Origin: Branchiostoma floridae
Taxonomy: Eukaryota > Chordata > Leptocardii > Amphioxiformes > Branchiostomatidae
Assembly: GCF_000003815.2 (NCBI RefSeq)
Contig: NC_049993.1
Coordinates: 2,611,627-2,675,626, forward strand
Length of the DNA: 64,000 nucleotides
Direction: 5' to 3'
Positions within the stretch are counted from its first letter, which is position 1. Every line of letters starts with the position of its first letter. Below are positions 33,872 through 55,816 of this stretch, piece after piece. Both the position numbers and the translations under genes were made by a program. The notes below the pieces were generated by a model. That model was given only the letters and a program-made list of their open reading frames with translations, was not told where the DNA came from and ran no database searches.

Positions 33872-34058
33872 CCCCCCCCCACATTAGGCGAACAACGATC
33901 GGACGACAAGTCTGCGAGCTCTAAATTACGAGGAGACATGACCCTGACGGGAAGGCGGGAACTCTGCCATTTCTTCGTCGGCATCAGGATCATGTCTCCT
34001 CGTAAATTAGAGCTCGCAGACTCGTCGTCCGATTGAATCGCGCCGAATGTGAGGGGGG
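33872..34058. mobile_element. Foldback MITE with ~75-bp inverted arms, orientation 1
   Basis: Arms CCCCCACATTAGGCGA ... GTCTGCGAGCTCTAAATTA and its inverse TAATTTAGAGCTCGCAGAC ... CGAATGTGAGGGGGG surround a 37-nt loop. TA lies at both flanks (CCCTA|CCCC ... GGGG|TATG), consistent with a TA target duplication. No frame of note. Confidence 0.9.
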
Positions 34059-34302
34059 TATGACCAATCGAGCACGTTAGTTGTGTGACCGTTCGCGAAG
34101 TCCAAAGTGTAGGTTACGTAATTGTGACTGGGGCCAGCTGTGATCTCAATGCGGCGCACAACCCGCCCGTGGGCGGAAGAAAATGTACAAACGGGAGGAC
34201 CCCGGCCCTCGTCAGGAGCTCCCTGTTCCGCATGTGGCTCGGCATGTAAGCACAGACTGACACTGTGTGTTTCTCCACTCGAACACCCGTATGCGGTATA
34301 TA
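34059..34302. other. Spacer between two foldback MITE copies
   Basis: GC-richer 244-bp stretch with an open minus-strand frame, but no domain, start context or splice pair that would support a gene. Confidence 0.4.
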
Positions 34303-34489
34303 CCCCCCGCACATTAGTCGAAAGTCAATCGGACGACGAGTCTGCGAGCTCTAAATTATGAGGAGGCATGACCCTGCTGCCGACGAAGAAATGGCATAGT
34401 TCTCCCCTTCCCGTCAGGATCATGCCTCCTCGTAATTTACAGGTCGCAGACTCGTCGTCCGATCAATTTTCGCCTAATGTGAGGGGGGG
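34303..34489. mobile_element. Foldback MITE, orientation 2
   Basis: Same arms as the 33872 element, but the loop (GCCGACGAAGAAATGGCA) is the reverse complement of the first copy's loop (TGCCATTTCTTCGTCGGC), so this copy inserted in the opposite direction. Flanks are TATA on both sides. Confidence 0.9.
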
Positions 34490-37549: not shown

Positions 37550-38521
37550 GATTGTTGTCTATCCTATAAAAAGCGCTTTTGGGATAAAATGTGCTTCTAT
37601 CCTAAAAGCGCTTCTGGGATATCCAGAACACGTCGCAACCGAAGGAGCACATTCTGGATATCCTAAAAGCGCTTTTGGGATAGAAGCAAATTTGGGATAG
37701 ATCTGCATCCAAAATGTTCTTCTATCCTAAAAGCGCTTCTAGGATATCCAGAACACGTCGCAAGCGAAGGAGCGCATTCTGGATATCCTGAATGCGCTTC
37801 TGTCGAAGGAGGCCGACATCTGTCTTCTCCTGTGCAGGGTGACTTTGTTAATAATGGTTTGCTGAATTTCATGATCAGCTGCTCAGGTTTGTTTCGAACC
37901 GGAGATAGCGATGCTACCTCGGTGTGTGGGGTCCATGCAGTCAACACGTCGCGAGAAAATGGCAGCGGTCACTTCCGGTGATTGTTTGCACCTGTCCAAA
38001 GTTTCCATATTAAGTTCGACCTCGCGACACCTGCCGTAATCTACTTGATCGAAATCCGCAGTTTATAAAGCAACCGCTGAACCTAGATTTTACGTGATTA
38101 TGGGAGGGTTAGACCGGCCCACGTAGTCCCCCAAAATGATTTGGTTTGTGCAAACTACGTTGATTTGGTGTAAGTATATGCGATCATCTATCACAATCAA
38201 ACCCGGAAGTGACCGCGTGGGGAGAACAAAGATGGCGGCCTTTTGACTACGAAAAATCACATGCAAGATAGTCTCCGCCTCCAAAGAGACTAAGCTCCTC
38301 CCACAAGTGCACGTTCTGGATAAACACGTCGGCTTATCCTGAATGCGCTCCGACAGAAGCGCATTCAGGATATCCAGAATGCGCTCCTCGCTTGCGACGT
38401 GTTCTGGATATCCCAGAAGCGCTTTTAGGATAGAAGCACATTTTGGATGCCGGTCTATCCTAAAAGCGCTTCTATCCTAAAAGCGCTTTTAGGATAGACG
38501 ACATTCTAGGATGTAACAATC
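37550..38521. mobile_element. ~970-bp foldback transposon with AAAGCGCTT subrepeats
   Basis: Left arm 37550-37830 and right arm 38310-38521 are inverted copies: GATTGTT...CTATCCTAAAAGCGCTT, GATATCCAGAACACGTCG, GGAGCGCATTCTGGATATCC. The palindromic words AAGCGCTT and GGATATCC repeat many times in each arm. The 480-bp centre has no transposase but holds GTCACTTCCGG (37968-37978), CCCGGAAGTGAC (38202-38213) and AAGATGGCGGCC (38229-38240), motifs seen in TATA-less promoters (ETS and YY1 types). Confidence 0.85.
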
Positions 38522-44143: not shown

Positions 44144-44390
44144 GTATTTAACAAGTTTTAATATATAAACAAGCTTTGCAATTTAACACTGTACTTACAC
44201 TGCAAAACCTCACTAAAACGTACAAAATTTGCACATTTTGCAAGCTATTTATCTATTTGTTTTATTTATTAACTTATTAATTATGGTTTTATTTTGCCAT
44301 TAAGTGTAAACAGATAAAACTGGCAACGAAACCCGTGAATCCCAATACCACTCAAAGATTAGACAATTGTGCAACACTTGTGTCTTACAG

Positions 44391-46852
44391 ACCCTACTGT
44401 TCAACAGTATGAACAAGAAGTGTCACCCCTGCGCAAGTTGGGCGATGTCTACCGCAGGCGAGGCTGTCAAACAGGAGACGGGGGAGACTTTGTCAAGGCG
44501 GCGGCGCTGTACCAGGCAGCAGCAGCCAGGTCGAAGGGCTCCAATAAGTCTCTTAAAGAAACCATAGAAGAGACAGAAGTGCTGTTTCTTAAACATGTCT
44601 TGAAGATAGATTATAACAGGAATGAAAATTATACAGTAAAACACAGAAACCAGCTGAAAGAAATTCGCGAGCTAATCAAACTAGAAATGGATACCATAGA
44701 CAAAGAGCTGAACCCCTACATACATGATGAGAAAAGTCAGTTAGCAAGGGAGATAGAAGCCAAGCGAGCTGACGCTGTCAGACGGTTGTTTGAGAAGATT
44801 GCAGGAGATAGAAAGGTGTTCATTGGACAGCTAGTAGATGAGTGTATCGCAGTGATGGGTCCCCCTCCCTATAAGTATGCCCTGATAGGTTTGGGTTCAC
44901 AAGCCACAGGGCTGGTAACTCCGTACTCAGACCTGGAGTTCGCCATCTTGATAGAGGAAGAAAATGAAGCAAATGTCGCGTATTTCCGACGACTGACTCA
45001 CTACCTGCACCTCAAGGTGGTCAACCTGGGAGAAACCATCCTCCCAGCCATGGGGATAACAAGTCTGAATGACTTCTACTCAGACGATCCACTGGACAAC
45101 TGGTACTATGACTCTGTTACACCCCGTGGGTTTGCCTTTGATGGCTCCATGCCAAAAGCTAGCAAGACTCCACTGGGCAGACAGGGAACTTCAACTGAAC
45201 CAGCCAGTGAGCTCATCCGCACCCCAAGAAACATGGCGGGAACCTTATTAAAGGATTTTTCCTTGTATCTCAAAGAAGGGTATCACCTCTGCAATGTACT
45301 GAGAAACGGTTGCCTGTTGGCGGGAGAACAGAGTTTAGTTGATGACTATGACGTCATTGTGACTGAGACTCTAAAGGCTCGGGGTGGAGAGATGGCCCGT
45401 CAGATGGCCAACGAGACGATCCGGGAGAATTTTGAGACAATATGTGAGCCAGAACGACACATACTTAGTGATGCGCTGTTGGATGTGAAGAAAGGAATCT
45501 ACCGGTTCCCAGTAATCGCAGTGGACTGTCTGGCACTCTGCTTCAATATCATTCCCACGTCGGTGTGGAAAACTATAGAAGAGATGCAGACTAAAGGCAT
45601 GGTCAGTGCAGAAAACGCGCATCACCTGAGGATGCTGGTCAGCATCTCAGCAGAACTCCGACTCAGAACCTACATTGCAAATGGCGGCCAGAAGGAAAGC
45701 CTGTCAGCCCTGCCATCTACGCCTACATCCTGGGACAACAGCAGTGGCAAACCAATTAACGACTTGCAGAAGGTGTTTTACATTTCCGACATGAATCTGC
45801 TCTTCAGGTATATCTTCACAGCACTTCCTTTGAAGCGTTTTTTGTCAGACGAACGCTCGGGCCGAAACTCGCTGCCTCGATCCTTGGATCGGCATGAAAA
45901 TTTATATGAACAATCTGCAGAAAAGAAAAGTTTAATCTACCGTTATTTTGGGTATCACAAAAAAGCCGTCAGGTGTCATGAAAAAGCTTTGGAAATAGGC
46001 AAATGTAATGGTAGTTTTGAAACCGCGTTGTCACTGAGCAACCTTGGAACAACCTTGGTATACAATGGAGATCACAGAAAAGCCTTCTCCCACTTGGAAC
46101 GAGCGGTGAAGATATTCCAAGATAGCTGTGTAGTTTTGTACGATGCCGGACACCCTAACATTGCTTGGACTCTGATCGCACAAGGAATGGCCTTGTATGA
46201 GATGGCGGACTTTAGAAAGGCACTCAGCTGCTTAGACACAGGAATGGACATGTACAGGAAATTGTATGGCCAAGAAAGTGCACACCGTGATGTTGCATTC
46301 ACTCTACACTTCCAGGGTTTAACATTTGTAGAACTTGGAGACCACCAGAAAGCACTCAGCTGTTTTAAACAGGCATGTGAGATGTACAGGAGGTTCTATG
46401 GAGGAAAGGACCATCCTGAAATCGCCAGTTCACTTACCGATGTTGGATCAGGCTGGCGAATGGTGGGTGATCGTAAGAAAGCTATCAGTATCCTTGAACA
46501 AGCACTGCAGATGAGCCAGAGGTTGCTTGGACCGAGAGCAGCACATCCTCATATAGCTCAGTCACTAGCCGAGCTAGGAATGAGCTGGTTTGAAATGGGG
46601 AATCCCCAGAAAGCTATCAGTTACGCAGAAGGAGCCTTGCAAATGTTTAGAAAAATCTACGGCGAAACTGCAGAACATCCTAAAATTGCGCGTTCACTCA
46701 TCAACCTTGGAGCGCCGTGGATACCGCTCGATCGAAAACGGGCACTCCTGTACTTCCAGCAGGGGCTGGAGATGACGAAGAGTCTGTATGGAGACGCGCA
46801 TCCCAAGACTAAAAACGCCAAGTGCTTTGTGCGATTCTTGGAGATTAGGTGA
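44391..46852 (+). CDS. NTase-TPR gene exon 4: nucleotidyltransferase core and TPR array
   Basis: Acceptor CTTACAG at 44390. 820 open codons to TGA 46850-46852. Numbering from 44369: residues 15-55 are another helical pair; 171-195 carry the nucleotidyltransferase signature [17 protein letters not shown] (Gly-Ser then D188 and E190); about 375-435 resemble the substrate-binding helical domain next to GlnD/DUF294 NTases ([23 protein letters not shown]); about 545-815 hold 5-6 TPRs of about 44-48 residues with LG..GD..KA..C.E.AL and HP.IA motifs, as in TPR_12/nephrocystin-type arrays. A third catalytic acid is not certain; DDYDVIV near 325-331 is a candidate. The protein is probably cytosolic. 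The fused NTase-TPR layout suggests a signalling or scaffold protein; the substrate is unknown. Confidence 0.85.
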
Positions 46853-48778: not shown

Positions 48779-48936
48779 ATGAGTTCTACCAAAGTCGCTC
48801 TCGTCACCGGGGGTACCCGCGGGATCGGCTTCGGGATCGCCGCTGAGCTGGCCCGAGCAGGGCACGACCTCATCCTGGGGTACCGGGAGAACCATCAGCG
48901 GGCCGAGGCCGCTAAGGCAGAGCTTGAAGAGACCCA
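48779..48936 (+). pseudogene. Short-chain dehydrogenase/reductase, N-terminal part (gene split by insertion)
   Basis: ATG 48779 opens MSSTKVALVTGGTRGIG: the beta1 strand and the TGxxxGxG dinucleotide-binding motif (residues 10-17), then AAELARAGHDLILGYR. The frame reaches the 6-bp target duplication GACCCA (48931-48936) and is then broken by the 6231-bp element, giving an early TAG. Joined with 55174-55816 it makes 801 nt, 266 aa plus stop, a normal SDR length. The gene is intronless and GC-rich compared with its surroundings, suggesting retroposition or transfer, but it keeps an apparent TATA box. Confidence 0.9.
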
Positions 48937-48979
48937 AGTAGTATAGTAGCGACAGAATGAGTCCCATTTTTCAGGTGGA

Positions 48980-49195
48980 GCAAGGTGGAGCAGGTCAGAG
49001 GTCAAATATGATTTATTCAAGCGCGGGTCATAGGTCAGGGGTCAGATATGTATTCAGGCGCAGGTCGGGGGTCACATATCATTTATTCAGGTATAGCAGG
49101 TCAGAGGTTAGATATAATGTATTCAGGTGGAGCAGGTCAGAGGTCAGATATAATGTATTCAGGCGCAGGTCAGAGGTCAGATTTTATGTGCCCTT
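48980..49195. repeat. Array of DR1-type AGGTCA direct repeats, left arm
   Basis: Six AGGTCA-N-AGGTCA-like elements at 48992, 49032, 49062, 49098, 49134 and 49167; those at 48992, 49134 and 49167 are perfect AGGTCAGAGGTCA. Spacing is 30-40 bp with ATATRATTTATTCAGG between. This is the DR1 consensus of RXR/HNF4/COUP-type nuclear receptors; function is inference. Confidence 0.85.
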
Positions 49196-49347
49196 TTGAT
49201 ACCCCCCCCCCCCCCCCGCCACAAATGAACCTCCCCCTCCCCATTTGTGAAAGACATGCCCTTATTTGGCCTGGTTCTAAGTCTCTATCGTATAAGATAA
49301 AGATGACAATGACCGTTTGATTTTTTCCGTTCTTTTATTCTGTACTT

Positions 49348-49680
49348 TCAAAAGTCAGCATCCAGCGTGAACTTTTGCTGTTCAGAGGAGGACATAACCC
49401 CCATCTTCTGGTACTCTCCCACCTTTTTCTCAAAGAAGTTGGTCTTTCCCTCCAGAGAAATGTTCTCCATGAAGTCAAAGGGGTTCTCGCTGTTGTAAAG
49501 CTTACTGCACATGAGTTCGCCCAGCAGCCTATCTGCGACAAACTCGATGTACTGTTTCATCAGGTCTTGATTCATCCCAATCAGCTTCACAGGAAGAGCT
49601 TCCGTCAGGAACTCTTGCTCAGTCTTAACAGCATCGTCGATAATCTGGTGAATGCGCTCCTCACTAGGCTTATTGGTTAC
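49348..49680 (-). pseudogene. Captured 3' end of ribonucleotide reductase small subunit, left arm
   Basis: Encodes the C-terminal ~107 residues of RRM2: [70 protein letters not shown], ending FTLDADF, the R2 tail that binds the large subunit. The first two thirds, with most iron ligands and the radical Tyr, are absent. An AATAAA-type signal follows the stop. The frame is intact and identical at protein level to the right-arm copy. No start codon context at its edge, so it is a fragment. Confidence 0.93.
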
Positions 49681-49684
49681 TTTA

Positions 49685-50960
49685 TTCTAGAGTAGCTATA
49701 TGTGTTGCTCAGGAGTAAAAGAAACTGCTCCGGAGTAAAATAAAACTGCTCCGGAGTATGCTCCGGAGTAAGTGAGTAAGTATATTTGTTGTAAGTATGT
49801 ATATTTGTCATGTACGTACGAACATATACCATCTATATGTACATGCAGTGAAACATTGCTTTGGAGTAACAATACGTGTTGCTCCGGAGTAAAAAAAAAC
49901 TGCTCCGGAGTAAAAGAAAACTGCTCCGGAGTAAAATAAACTGCTCCGGAGTAAAAGAAAACTACTCCGGAGTAAGTGAGTAAGTATATTTGTTGTAAGT
50001 ATGTATATTTGTCATGTACGTACGAACATATACCATCTACATGTACATGCAGTGAAACATTGCTTTGGAGTAACTATACGTGTTGCTCCGGAGTAAAAAC
50101 ACTGCTCCGGAGTAAAAGAAAACTGCTCCGGAGTAAAATAAACTGCTCCGGAGTAAAATAAAACTGCTCCGGAGTAAGTGAGTAAGTATATTTGTTGTAA
50201 GTATGTATATTTGTCATGTACGTACGAACATATACCATCTATATGTACATGCAGTGAAACATTGCTTTGGAGTAACTATACGTGTTGCTCCGGAGTAAAA
50301 ACACTGCTCCGGAGTAAAAGAAAACTGCTCCGGAGTAAAATAAACTGCTCCGGAGTAAAATAAAACTACTCCGGAGTATGCTCCGGAGTAAGTATATTTG
50401 TTGTATGTATGTTTGTCATGTACGTACGAACATATACCATCTATATGTACATGCAGTGAGACATTGCTTTGGAGTAACTATACGTGTTGCTCCGGAGTAA
50501 AACACTGCTCCGGAGTAAAAGAAAACTGCTCCGGAGTAAAATAAACTGCTCCGGAGTAAAATAAAACTACTTCGGAGTATGCTCCGGAGTAAGTGAGTAA
50601 GTATATTTGTTGTATGTATATTTGTCATGTACGTACGAACATATACCATCTATATGTACATGCAGTGAAACATTGCTCCGGAGTAAAAACACTGCTCCGG
50701 AGTAAAAGAAAACTGCTCCGGAGTAAAAGAAAATTACTCCGGAGTATGCTCCGGAGTAAGTGAGTAAGTATATTCGTTGTAAGTATGTATATTTGTCTAA
50801 GTATATTTGTTGTAAGTATGTATATTTGTCATCTACGTGCGAACATATACCATCTATATGTACATGCAGTGAAACATTGCTTTGGAGTAGGTATACGTTT
50901 TGCTCCGGAGTAAAAAAAAACTGCTCCGGAGTAAGTGAGTACGTATATTCGTGTTAAGTA
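49685..50960. repeat. CTCCGGAG minisatellite in ~203-bp higher-order repeats, left arm
   Basis: Short units (A)CTGCTCCGGAGTAAAA are grouped into about six higher-order units starting near 49768, 49975, 50177, 50380, 50588 and 50757. Each has GTAAGTATATTTGTTGTA, CATGTACGTACGAACATATA, CATGCAGTGAAACATTGC and TTGGAGTAACTATACG. Short frames over it are artefacts. Confidence 0.95.
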
Positions 50961-51198
50961 ACGCATACGTATTTGCCATGTACGTGCCTGTTATGTACTA
51001 GGCATATATCAACACAGCAATACAAAAGACAGGAGTGTACGGTGATCCTGTTTCTTAAGACTTTACTAGCACTTGACGTCTATAAAAAATGTATCAAGGA
51101 ATTCATAACCGATGTACATCTCGTCCGATCCTCTATGTCAAACATGGTATGACATTAGGAAATAAAAGCTGTACTGCATGCGATATGGCGACCTCACA

Positions 51199-51942
51199 TT
51201 ACTTCAGGACGAGGTAACCATATTTTTTCATCAATGTCTGTTCTGAGACCCAGTTCTTGCTGTGTACAATCTCATTACTGTAACGAGGCAACGCAGCGAA
51301 CTCTATTAGATAAAACTTTTTGCCAGCGCGCTTCGTCTGTTTGATGACACTTTGAGGAACATCGCCTGGCTGGTGAGGTAGTGCGATGGTCAAGTCTCGA
51401 TAGAGTGTCCACTCCTCCTCGTCACCGCTGTGGTAGCCGCTGTCGTAGCCAGTGCGTTCACTTTCATCAGATGAAACCGTCCCTGAGGACACATCTGTCC
51501 CTGTATCACTCTCGGAACCACTTTGGTCGCTGTCGGTTTCTTCTGTGGAGTCTCCCGGCTCGGAACCCATCACAGATTCGGCGTCTGAGACGCTTTCTTC
51601 ATCTTGTGACACCATCGAATCTTCGGAACCAACCGTGTCCGTATCGTGTTCAGACGACACGTCGGAGTCGTCGAAAACATCGCGCTCCCGGTAAGAGCCC
51701 GTCTCGGCATCAACGACGACTTCTCCCGAGGCACCACCTGACTCGTCTCGGTGTTTTCTTTCCAGATGACGCTCGAGGTTGAACGCACGATCAAATTCCC
51801 GATCACAAATGTCGCAGACGTGAGGCATACTTTTTGTTCGGCGGACAGAAGGGAAATGATAAGGTATTGATGTGCACACATATATTTGTGGCGCATGAAA
51901 GTTTTTAAGGGATCGGTCGTTTATCTTGTATGCATCATGCAT
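51199..51942 (-). CDS. C2H2 zinc-finger acidic protein encoded by the element, left arm
   Basis: 247 codons from ATG 51942; an internal Met at 51828 (MPHVCDICDREF) gives 209 aa and may be the real start. One C2H2 finger CDICDREFDRAFNLERH..H (C-x2-C-x12-H-x4-H), then about 100 residues extremely rich in Asp, Glu and Ser (SVSDAESVMGSEPGDSTEET), then a structured C-terminus (WTLYRDLTIALPHQPGDVP, AGKKFYLIEFAALPRYS) ending YGYLVLK. A DNA-binding protein with an acidic region is plausible; no homolog is recognised. It is transcribed outward from the centre of the palindrome. Confidence 0.75.
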   Translation of the reverse strand: MHDAYKINDRSLKNFHAPQIYVCTSIPYHFPSVRRTKSMPHVCDICDREFDRAFNLERHLERKHRDESGGASGEVVVDAETGSYRERDVFDDSDVSSEHDTDTVGSEDSMVSQDEESVSDAESVMGSEPGDSTEETDSDQSGSESDTGTDVSSGTVSSDESERTGYDSGYHSGDEEEWTLYRDLTIALPHQPGDVPQSVIKQTKRAGKKFYLIEFAALPRYSNEIVHSKNWVSEQTLMKKYGYLVLK

Positions 51943-52358
51943 CTACGTATGCCGTTACTGCATACGTGGTATTGAAATATTGTTAAGGATAATGAATATG
52001 ACAGTGTAAATCCGTACATTGCGCTTCGCTTAGACACTAACGGATGCCCGATAGCTTGCTCACGTCACCAAAGAAGGGAACCCTATGGATTTTGAAAAAT
52101 TTCGTGCGGTTCTTACAACTAGGCGGTCGCGGATAGTTATGCATAACATGAACACCACAAATATTGAGAATGTGTACTATGCAGTTCGCTTTGAAAATAA
52201 AACATGGCCGATNNNNNNNNNNNNNNNNNNNNNNNNNNNNNNNNNNNNNNNNNNNNNNNNNNNNNNNNNNNNNNNNNNNNNNNNNNNNNNNNNNNNNNNN
52301 NNNNNNNNNNNNNNNNNNNNNNNNNNNNNNNNNGGCAATCATGCCCTATCTTTACACA
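51943..52358. other. Asymmetric centre of the palindromic element, with gap
   Basis: Unique sequence between the arms, including a small TACGTATGC...GCATACGT stem near 51946-51967 and a 121-N gap at 52213-52333. The gap size differs from the 100-N placeholders, so it may be a sized gap. Confidence 0.7.
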
Positions 52359-52819
52359 TGTCGTCTGAACACGATACGGACACGGTTGGTTCCGAAGATT
52401 CGATGGTGTCACAAGATGAAGAAAGCGTCTCAGACGCCGAATCTGTGATGGGTTCCGAGCCGGGAGACTCCACAGAAGAAACCGACAGCGACCAAAGTGG
52501 TTCCGAGAGTGATACAGGGACAGATGTGTCCTCAGGGACGGTTTCATCTGATGAAAGTGAACGCACTGGCTACGACAGCGGCTACCACAGCGGTGACGAG
52601 GAGGAGTGGACACTCTATCGAGACTTGACCATCGCACTACCTCACCAGCCAGGCGATGTTCCTCAAAGTGTCATCAAACAGACGAAGCGCGCTGGCAAAA
52701 AGTTTTATCTAATAGAGTTCGCTGCGTTGCCTCGTTACAGTAATGAGATTGTACACAGCAAGAACTGGGTCTCAGAACAGACATTGATGAAAAAATATGG
52801 TTACCTCGTCCTGAAGTAA
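52359..52819 (+). pseudogene. 5'-truncated copy of the element's acidic protein, right arm
   Basis: From SSEHDTDTVGSEDS to the end the protein is identical to the left-arm copy, with the same stop (TAA 52817-52819), but the start and zinc finger are missing; other sequence precedes it beyond the asymmetry point. Only the left arm keeps an intact gene, unless the missing part lies in the gap. Confidence 0.85.
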
Positions 52820-53069
52820 TGTGAGGTCGCCATATCGCATGCAGTACAGCTTTTATTTCCTAATGTCATACCATGTTTGACATAGAGGATCGGACGAGAT
52901 GTACATCGGTTATGAATTCCTTGATACATTTTTTATAGACGTCAAGTGCTAGTAAAGTCTTAAGAAACAGGATCACCGTACACTCCTGTCTTTTGTATTG
53001 CTGTGTTGATATATGCCTAGTACATAACAGGCACGTACATGGCAAATACGTATGCGTTACTTAACACGA

Positions 53070-54315
53070 ATATACGTACTCACTTACTCCGGAGCAGTTT
53101 TTTTTTACTCCGGAGCAAAACGTATACCTACTCCAAAGCAATGTTTCACTGCATGTACATATAGATGGTATATGTTCGCACGAAGATGACAAATATACAT
53201 ACTTACAACAAATATACTTAGACAAATATACATACTTACAACGAATATACTTACTCACTTACTCCGGAGCATACTCCGGAGTAATTTTCTTTTACTCCGG
53301 AGCAGTTTTCTTTTACTCCGGAGCAGTGTTTTTACTCCGGAGCAATGTTTCACTGCATGTACATATAGATGGTATATGTTCGTACGTACATGACAAATAT
53401 ACATACAACAAATATACTTACTCACTTACTCCGGAGCATACTCCGGAGTAGTTTTATTTTACTCCGGAGCAGTTTATTTTACTCCGGAGCAGTTTTCTTT
53501 TACTCCGGAGCAGTGTTTTACTCCGGAGCAACACGTATAGTTACTCCAAAGCAATGTCTCACTGCATGTACATATAGATGGTATATGTTCGTACGTACAT
53601 GACAAACATACATACAACAAATATACTTACTCCGGAGCATACTCCGGAGTAGTTTTATTTTACTCCGGAGCAGTTTATTTTACTCCGGAGCAGTTTTCTT
53701 TTACTCCGGAGCAGTGTTTTTACTCCGGAGCAACACGTATAGTTACTCCAAAGCAATGTTTCACTGCATGTACATGTAGATGGTATATGTTCGTACGTAC
53801 ATGACAAATATACATACTTACAACAAATATACTTACTCACTTACTCCGGAGTAGTTTTCTTTTACTCCGGAGCAGTTTATTTTACTCCGGAGCAGTTTTC
53901 TTTTACTCCGGAGCAGTGTTTTTACTCCGGAGCAACACGTATAGTTACTCCAAAGCAATGTTTCACTGCATGTACATGTAGATGGTATATGTTCGTACGT
54001 ACATGACAAATATACATACTTACAACAAATATACTTACTCACTTACTCCGGAGTAGTTTTCTTTTACTCCGGAGCAGTTTATTTTACTCCGGAGCAGTTT
54101 TCTTTTACTCCGGAGCAGTTTTTTTTTACTCCGGAGCAACACGTATTGTTACTCCAAAGCAATGTTTCACTGCATGTACATATAGATGGTATATGTTCGT
54201 ACGTACATGACAAATATACATACTTACAACAAATATACTTACTCACTTACTCCGGAGCATACTCCGGAGCAGTTTTATTTTACTCCGGAGCAGTTTCTTT
54301 TACTCCTGAGCAACA
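53070..54315. repeat. CTCCGGAG minisatellite, right arm
   Basis: Inverted counterpart of 49685-50960 with the same higher-order units and few base differences. Confidence 0.95.
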
Positions 54316-54337
54316 CATATAGCTACTCTAGAATAAA

Positions 54338-54670
54338 GTAACCAATAAGCCTAGTGAGGAGCGCATTCACCAGATTATCGACGATGCTGTTAAGACTGAG
54401 CAAGAGTTCCTGACGGAAGCTCTTCCTGTGAAGCTGATTGGGATGAATCAAGACCTGATGAAACAGTACATCGAGTTTGTCGCAGATAGGCTGCTGGGCG
54501 AACTCATGTGCAGTAAGCTTTACAACAGCGAGAACCCCTTTGACTTCATGGAGAACATTTCTCTGGAGGGAAAGACCAACTTCTTTGAGAAAAAGGTGGG
54601 AGAGTACCAGAAGATGGGGGTTATGTCCTCCTCTGAACAGCAAAAGTTCACGCTGGATGCTGACTTTTGA
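54338..54670 (+). pseudogene. Captured 3' end of ribonucleotide reductase small subunit, right arm
   Basis: Same ~107-residue RRM2 C-terminus as the left arm, stop TGA 54668-54670, poly(A) signal AATAAA at 54679-54684. Orientation is outward, so a transcript could run towards the SDR 3' exon. Truncated at the 5' side by the CTCCGGAG array. Confidence 0.93.
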
Positions 54671-54819
54671 AAGTACAGAATAAAAGAACGGAAAAAATCA
54701 AACGGTCATTGTCATCTTTATCTTATACGATAGAGACTTAGAACCAGGCCAATAAGGGCATGTCTTTCACAATGGGGAGGGGGAGGTTCCTTTGGGGTGG
54801 GGTGGGGTTGTCGTACTTA

Positions 54820-55130
54820 CCGAGGCTCCGCCTGAATATATGATATCGGACCCCTGACCTGCGCCGCCTGAATAAATCATATTTGACCTCTGACCTGCTA
54901 TACCTGAATAAATGATATATATGACCCCTGACCTGCTGCGCCTGAATAAATTATATCTGACCTCTGACCTGCTCCACCTGAATACATTATATCTAACCTC
55001 TGACCTGCTATACCTGAATAAATGATATGTGACCCCCGACCTGCGCCTGAATACATATCTGACCCCTGACCTATGACCCGCGCTTGAATAAATCATATTT
55101 GACCTCTGACCTGCTCCACCTTGCTCCCCC
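54820..55130. repeat. Array of DR1-type repeats, right arm
   Basis: Inverted counterpart of the left array (TGACCTCTGACCT on the plus strand), expanded to about eight or nine units. This copy-number difference is the main asymmetry between the arms. Confidence 0.85.
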
Positions 55131-55173
55131 TGAAAAATGGGACTCATTCTGTCGCTACTATACTACTGACCCA

Positions 55174-55816
55174 CAAGGTGCGTGTGTTCCTTATAGCAGG
55201 CGGGACAGAGGAAGAGGCTACGGCCGACGCCTTCTTCGCGTGCGTCCATACGAACTTTGGCGGCAGGCTCACCGCGCTGGTCCACAACGCCGACGGGCAC
55301 TACCGCAGCGGACCCCCGCCCTGCAAGCCGGACGCGACCGGTAGCTGGTTCGCGGGCTGGGACGCCTACGAGTACTACCACAACATCTACGCCAAGTGTT
55401 TCCTCCGTTTGGTAGAGCAGGCCGTGAGTCGGATGGAGGACGACCGGGGGTACATCGTGGCCGTGGCAGGGCTCGGGTGTAACAGTAACACCAGCCCCAG
55501 CCTGCCGTACTTCACCCCGGGTACGGCCAAGGCCAGTATGGAGTACATGGTGAGGCACTACGCCAAGCAGCTGGCGCCCAGACGCATCACCTGTAACACC
55601 GTCATACCGGGGATGGTCGACACGGAGGCTTGGGCACCGGTGAGGGCGAGGATCGGGAAGGAGGGGGTAGCGGACATGGTGGGCAGGCTCTGCGGGATGG
55701 GGCGCTGGGGCACCCCGAGGGACGTCGGCGGCGTGGTCGCCTTCCTCTGCTCGGAGCGAGCGGGCTTCGTCACGGGCGCGGCTATTCCCGTGGACGGGGG
55801 GTTCCATCTCAAGTAG
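55174..55816 (+). pseudogene. Short-chain dehydrogenase/reductase, C-terminal part
   Basis: Resumes after the second GACCCA with HKVRVFLIAGGTEEEATAD and runs to TAG 55814-55816. Contains HNADG at the NNAG position, VAGLG, the active-site region LPYFTPGTAK and the cofactor/C-terminal motifs CNTVIPGMVDT and GAAIPVDGG. Tyr165 and Lys172 (joined numbering) are spaced Y-x6-K, as in the divergent enoyl-ACP-reductase-type SDRs, rather than Y-x3-K. Substrate unknown. Codons are strongly GC-rich. Without the insertion the gene would appear intact, so the damage looks recent, or the insertion is one allele. Confidence 0.9.

Follow-up and report, generated by a model that had tools for sequence, protein, structure and literature searches.

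Phages (P4-like satellites and PICI) and giant-virus systems (virophages) offer familiar examples of satellites that live off a helper virus. Such satellites have genes of their own, use the ends or the machinery of the helper and miss its core genes. Palindromic genomes are familiar as defective adenovirus genomes, deletion products of a protein-primed linear replicon in which one end recurs, together with its neighbouring genes, as an inverted copy. The element described here lies in a stretch of 64,000 nucleotides of the Branchiostoma floridae genome (assembly GCF_000003815.2, contig NC_049993.1, positions 2,611,627 to 2,675,626 of the forward strand), referred to as the window; coordinates without a locus name are window positions. 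It is a mobile, almost mirror-symmetric insertion of 6,231 bp at 48937-55167 that splits a short-chain dehydrogenase (SDR) gene. It is best explained as a satellite of Mavericks/Polintons that carries genes and inserted recently. A palindromic, gene-bearing family of such satellites is the main reading, to which we assign a probability of about 85%. By analogy, the element would resemble phage and virus satellites in the traits named above, with a chromosomally resident Maverick as the presumed helper. It differs from the defective adenovirus genomes in belonging to a family that is dispersed and has a gene of its own.

Vertebrate Mavericks/Polintons have terminal inverted repeats (TIRs), 6-bp target duplications and, as their commonest end motif, (AGT)2//(ACT)2, all in common with the window element (PMC8097293). 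Motif repetition in Maverick ends is held to permit 'jumping-back' in protein-primed replication. Vertebrate copies are 12.7-24.6 kb long with TIRs of 46-1,447 bp (PMC8097293), whereas the window element has 6.2 kb and arms of about 2.7 kb. The large amphioxus copies described below match Mavericks further, with an integrase, an A32-type ATPase and a C5-like protease. Unlike Mavericks, the window element has no core gene that could be found, and it carries a private repeat array and gene. Tetris and Galileo of Drosophila are similar in their long TIRs, internal tandem repeats of ~210-220 bp and non-autonomous copies (PMC4079207, PMC3573991), and Galileo also in the growth of its TIRs by recruitment of internal sequence (PMC3573991). 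Galileo differs by a P-type transposase and a 7-bp duplication (PMC3573991), and Tetris by duplications of 8-10 bp and, in the account of its three complete copies, the lack of a conserved ORF (PMC4079207). The 6-bp duplication of IS3EU/GingerRoot fits, but their ends are TA..TA or occasionally TG..CA (PMC10045372), compared with AGT..ACT here.

The insertion is flanked by GACCCA at 48931-48936 and 55168-55173, read directly in the sequence. Joining the 5' part of the SDR gene (48779-48936, +) to its 3' part (55174-55816, +) regains a single ATG-to-stop frame of 266 amino acids, and Pfam matched adh_short_C2 in the right-hand part. The termini of the element are inverted and identical. Their first 25 bp are equal (AGTAGTATAGTAGCGACAGAATGAG), and the window holds the 19-bp end twice, compared with 0.01 occurrences expected by chance at up to three mismatches. 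The outer arms (48937-49168 and 54936-55167) differ by two substitutions in 232 bp and the inner core arms (49266-51662 and 52356-54752) by six in 2,397 bp, corresponding to 99.7% identity. Between these parts lies a divergent patch of variable length (~49155-49265 against 54753-54949), which has ~88 bp of extra sequence on the right, for the most part 36-bp minisatellite. The initial annotation of this DNA, made from the letters alone, had reported the duplication, the inverted ends and the regained SDR frame; direct reading and computation agree. It had further proposed a single mobile unit of two gene-bearing arms, rightly so. Its description of the arms as almost identical holds for most of their length but not for the minisatellite patch.

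Four copies of 15.6-17.7 kb in the same genome are Mavericks (C158, C11, C17 and C12:5.27 Mb, fetched as stretches L032-L039). Ten ORFs chosen from two large copies were run against Pfam and yielded Ribonuc_red_sm (9.5e-116), rve (1e-12) with Chromo (1.9e-11), PC4 (4.1e-27), Bcl-2 (4.3e-10), Pox_A32 of the A32-type ATPase (1.7e-5) and Peptidase_C5 (8.4e-4, under Pfam's cut-off). The integrase has an open frame of 393 amino acids in five of six loci and was aligned over residues 1-380 in the sixth. Integrase, ATPase, protease and a capsid candidate were detected with tblastn in all four large copies, and some of them also in the C7 and C12:19.8 Mb copies. The polymerase candidate is a 1,435-aa ORF (L034:4556-8863, +) with N-terminal C2H2 fingers and one DTDS motif. 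In a search of solved structures, the best 60 of its 240 matches were zinc fingers. A full-length, animal-type ribonucleotide reductase (RNR) small subunit of 345 amino acids is stop-free in L032, L034, L036 and L050 and has one gap in L043. Its gene adjoins one terminal repeat (L032:884-1921, -, and equivalents in the other four). A Bcl-2-family gene adjoins the other Maverick end (L035:8165-8659, -) and is kept in the small copies L040, L042, L045, L047 and L048, stop-free in four of the five. Mavericks carrying both an RNR small subunit and a Bcl-2-family protein point to viral-style host manipulation.

The ends of the window element are common to integrase-bearing copies in this genome. 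It has the terminal repeat type, the AGTAGT ends and the 6-bp duplication of the Mavericks found there. The left TIR (48937-49287, +) comprises ~350 bp with an AGTAGT end and the 36-bp subterminal minisatellite and is related to both ends of large Mavericks; the right TIR lies at 54731-55167 (-). The first ~740 bp of the arm align to the RNR-side Maverick end in five copies at 83.8-90.9% (from position 121 in L034 and L036), whereas alignment to the opposite ends is confined to the first ~350 bp. The RNR piece of each arm is therefore most plausibly what is left of the terminal gene of the Maverick itself. It holds the last 110 codons and the stop of a Maverick-type small-subunit gene (54338-54670, +; 49348-49680, -, with coordinates mirrored from the right arm). 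The similarity of each arm to one Maverick end covers its outer ~740 bp, which close in this truncated gene. Small copies retain only 3' remnants of RNR of varied length (residues 127-345, 129-345, ~235-345, 237-345, 237-328 and 267-345). A captured host exon had been considered for the RNR piece and was dropped once full RNR genes were seen in Mavericks. A protein search with the fragment gave 3,934 matches at E <= 1e-20, the length filter leaving out full-length RNR; no Branchiostoma name was among the 120 matches listed, most of which were nameless. Integrase, ATPase, protease and capsid genes had no match in the window element, in which a gap of 121 N is unreadable. No ORF of more than 247 amino acids was present among those of 120 or more, and no search aimed at a polymerase was made.

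The terminal 364 bp had 50 matches in the genome, some ends being split into several pieces, and the matches often form inverted pairs 2.5 to 24 kb apart; all genome copy counts are lower bounds. The sample consisted of 14 end pairs, fetched as 20 stretches, and four palindromic copies picked from matches to the C2H2 gene of the element. Target duplications were sought in 20 end pairs, including the window and one nested pair, as the best fit near each end with AG..CT required. Perfect 6-bp duplications were present in 14 of the 20 (10/16 in the first set and 4/4 palindromic copies), and all 14 pairs start with AGTAGTATA, which corresponds to AGTAGT ends. Terminal repeats were 95.6-100% identical within 12 copies and 81.2-98.0% (median 89.2%) between copies. 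In L048, a satellite with one gene, they are doubled and nested at both ends. The 19-bp end had one exact match in IMG/VR (L001), with no visible similarity past the 19 bp, and this was taken as chance.

The initial annotation was also right in likening the duplication and the ends to those of Polintons/Mavericks and in suggesting a non-autonomous element. It had proposed to look for further insertions that share the end and have 6-bp duplications, and for versions with a single gene arm, such as L048; both were found. Its statement that no Maverick gene is present does not stand, as the Maverick-like outer part of each arm includes the RNR 3' end. Its account was incomplete in that the element belongs to a dispersed family, for which the palindrome, with a shared centre, is a characteristic architecture.

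The box array and the C2H2 gene were seen in small copies; the large Mavericks examined all lack them. In the left arm, the array (49706-50934) consists of ~202-bp repeats with 32 TRCTYCGGAGTA-type boxes that share the palindromic core CTCCGGAG; its counterpart in the right arm spans 53084-54312. This core was counted 63 times in the window region and 4-59 times in 11 other small copies, once in L043 and not at all in the eight pieces of the four large Mavericks. Of the 25 stretches searched, nine had the C2H2 gene and ten an integrase, ATPase, protease or capsid candidate, with an overlap of zero. A conserved private gene, as looked for in a satellite, is therefore at hand in the C2H2 gene, its absence from Mavericks being judged on the fetched copies. 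The left-arm gene (51199-51828, -) is complete with 209 amino acids, an acidic middle and a conserved C-terminal domain. The genome held 103 matches to it, of which 52 were at least 190 amino acids long. The gene shows purifying selection, with a median NG86 dN/dS of 0.33 in 51 non-independent pairs with dS >0.03, drawn from 11 ORFs at seven loci. A protein search gave 30 matches, 28 with Branchiostoma names and two nameless. The B. floridae entries were 68-99% identical and those of B. belcheri 40-68%, and the gene is considered old because of these relatives in B. belcheri. Database names such as 'Crystallin, lambda 1' were disregarded as automatic labels. No member of the C2H2 family was confirmed in viral_contigs, and a BFVD fold search had no match at E <= 0.001.

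Clustering of the C2H2 matches by a 6-kb rule resulted in 70 clusters. Copies on both strands were present in 17, divergent in 16 and convergent in one, and eight clusters, including the window, held two copies of at least 150 amino acids. Some clusters are damaged or gapped, and others are one-gene copies, L048 being an example. Palindromic copies with divergent genes around a shared asymmetric centre recur in the family, and in six two-arm copies the arms were 93-99.8% identical. Besides the window, these were L053 (2,747 bp at 99.8%), L054 (2,092 bp at 99.8%), L042 (1,800 bp at 99.3% and 882 bp at 99.4%), L055 (outer 99.2%, inner 97.6%) and L052 (inner 97.8%, outer 93.3%). For the segment next to the C2H2 gene, identity within five copies (99.0-100%) exceeded all 86 values between copies (91.4-97.9%). 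In a tree of 14 such segments, the arms paired together in all five two-arm copies, being identical or joined with a bootstrap of at least 99. L055, which is free of N, has a ~60-bp asymmetric centre. Judged by eye, L042, the one-gene copy L048 and the left side of the window element up to ~51984 share it. Because these copies have their centre in common, the palindrome probably arose before they spread, and the arms were probably homogenised copy by copy.

The genes next to the ends can be doubled as well. RNR remnants are found on both arms of the window element, L041 (one side damaged), L042, L053 and L055 (a stop in both), and the Bcl-2 gene on both arms of L040, L042 and L045. L046 has one good and one diverged RNR remnant, and L047 has one RNR remnant and one Bcl-2 gene.

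The centre of the window copy deviates from that of the family and is rearranged or misassembled. The upstream region of the left C2H2 gene and the left part of the conserved centre span 51829-51984, followed by 228 bases without match in any fetched locus (51985-52212) and the 121-N gap (52213-52333). A short sequence at 52334-52355 has no counterpart in the left arm, and 51663-52212 has none in the right. The right C2H2 gene (52358-52819, +) is cut and retains only codons 57-209. An ORF in the loop (52085-52212) had no relative in the searches. Its likeness to the N-terminus of P0027 was dropped, as 79 of 1000 shuffles attained the same score. Rfam had no match at gathering thresholds in the whole window.

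From the shared ends and duplications, we infer that the satellites are mobilised in trans by Mavericks. The Maverick integrase would insert the satellite and the Maverick protein-primed polymerase would copy it. The C2H2 protein may bind the CTCCGGAG boxes and favour the satellite by acting in replication, by capturing helper proteins or by silencing. Arms could be renewed during replication if the growing strand, once past the centre, turned back on itself and used its own arm as template; either Maverick end, RNR or Bcl-2, could then come to stand on both sides. We regard fold-back renewal of the arms as an even bet. A wider picture is offered tentatively and at slightly less than even odds: a long-lived satellite of virus-like transposons in the animal germline, with Maverick ends, a selected DNA-binding gene, ~60 palindromic boxes, hairpin propagation that equalises the arms in each round and a swappable helper end. 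Such a satellite may be a parasite of Mavericks or a defence against them.

The strongest alternative concerns the arms. They may be uniform only through arm-to-arm gene conversion after insertion, with ordinary movement by an integrase and without fold-back replication, which we consider a serious possibility although a somewhat less than even one. Close inverted repeats are good substrates for gene conversion, and the excess of identity within over that between copies is what it would leave. The doubled Maverick ends fit fold-back copying naturally; long conversion tracts could also yield them but would need to reach the termini. Uniformity over more than 2 kb in L053, L054 and the window element also counts against conversion, but both observations are compatible with it. 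A one-off snap-back, by which the copy formed once through terminal duplication of a full Maverick and then inserted, would account for core arms that are nearly identical and start with a Maverick-type end. It is contradicted by the family as far as examined, since the large Mavericks lack array and C2H2 gene, other copies have the same palindrome centre and further paired C2H2 genes exist, so that this origin is very improbable. Independent snap-back events were likewise dropped after the shared centre had been seen.

A foldback element of a cut-and-paste superfamily (P/Galileo, hAT or MuDR), unrelated to Mavericks, is suggested by the long TIRs and the internal tandem repeats of ~200 bp, as in Tetris (PMC4079207) and Galileo (PMC3573991). 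This is contradicted by ends common to integrase-bearing Mavericks, the duplications of 8-10 bp and 7 bp in those elements also differ from the 6 bp here, and such an origin is hardly credible. The initial annotation had itself raised a haplotype misjoin around the gap as a source of the palindrome. The gap, the unmatched 228 bp and the truncated right gene speak for an error in the centre of the window copy, and the centres of L052-L054 are gapped too. However, the two ends interrupt a single SDR gene between copies of a 6-bp duplication, the palindrome of L055 contains no N, and seven other loci hold two long C2H2 copies on opposite strands. The worry may hold for the centre of the window copy, where the right arm is truncated beside the gap, and sits badly with the ends; an artefact as the cause of the palindrome is highly unlikely.

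Several observations weigh against the preferred reading of a palindromic satellite family mobilised by Mavericks. The identity of the arms is explained about as well by gene conversion. The minisatellite patch at 49155-49265 is unlike between the arms, which simple recent copying would not predict. Most clusters are not demonstrably paired because only 17 of 70 have copies on both strands. Five of the 20 end pairs have no duplication and one pair matches at 5/6 bp, some ends being imprecise or not fetched; two of the five were retested, again without a duplication. The identity ranges of the terminal repeats within and between copies overlap. An array without a C2H2 match is seen in L040 (2,930 N), L046 and L047, L048 has one C2H2 gene only, and three of the 52 long matches hold stops. 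L052 and L054 carry neither RNR nor Bcl-2. The RNR remnant of the window is an open frame, and a function is therefore possible. Among the putative helpers, the C12:5.27 Mb copy (L038/L039, 840 N) had no RNR match, and Pfam (E <= 0.1) gave no polymerase match for the 1,435-aa ORF, so that the polymerase stays a candidate.

If the satellite reading is true, a dispersed, palindromic, gene-carrying satellite resides in a chordate germline, helper-satellite conflict becomes testable there and the helper genes are open frames. The age of each insertion might be read from the identity between its arms, which also allows a test of fold-back replication in protein-primed elements. Searches of the open-licence literature gave no title about palindromic satellites of Mavericks or about Mavericks in amphioxus, which proves little.

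Two further inverted-repeat structures in the window are similar to miniature inverted-repeat transposable elements. One, at 33872-34489, comprises 618 bp with arms 88% alike and no convincing duplication. The other, at 37659-38496, comprises 838 bp with arms 93% alike, and ACATTCT stands close to both of its ends as a 7-bp direct repeat. An ORF of 827 amino acids (44369-46852, +) contains a DUF294-type nucleotidyltransferase region and TPR repeats.

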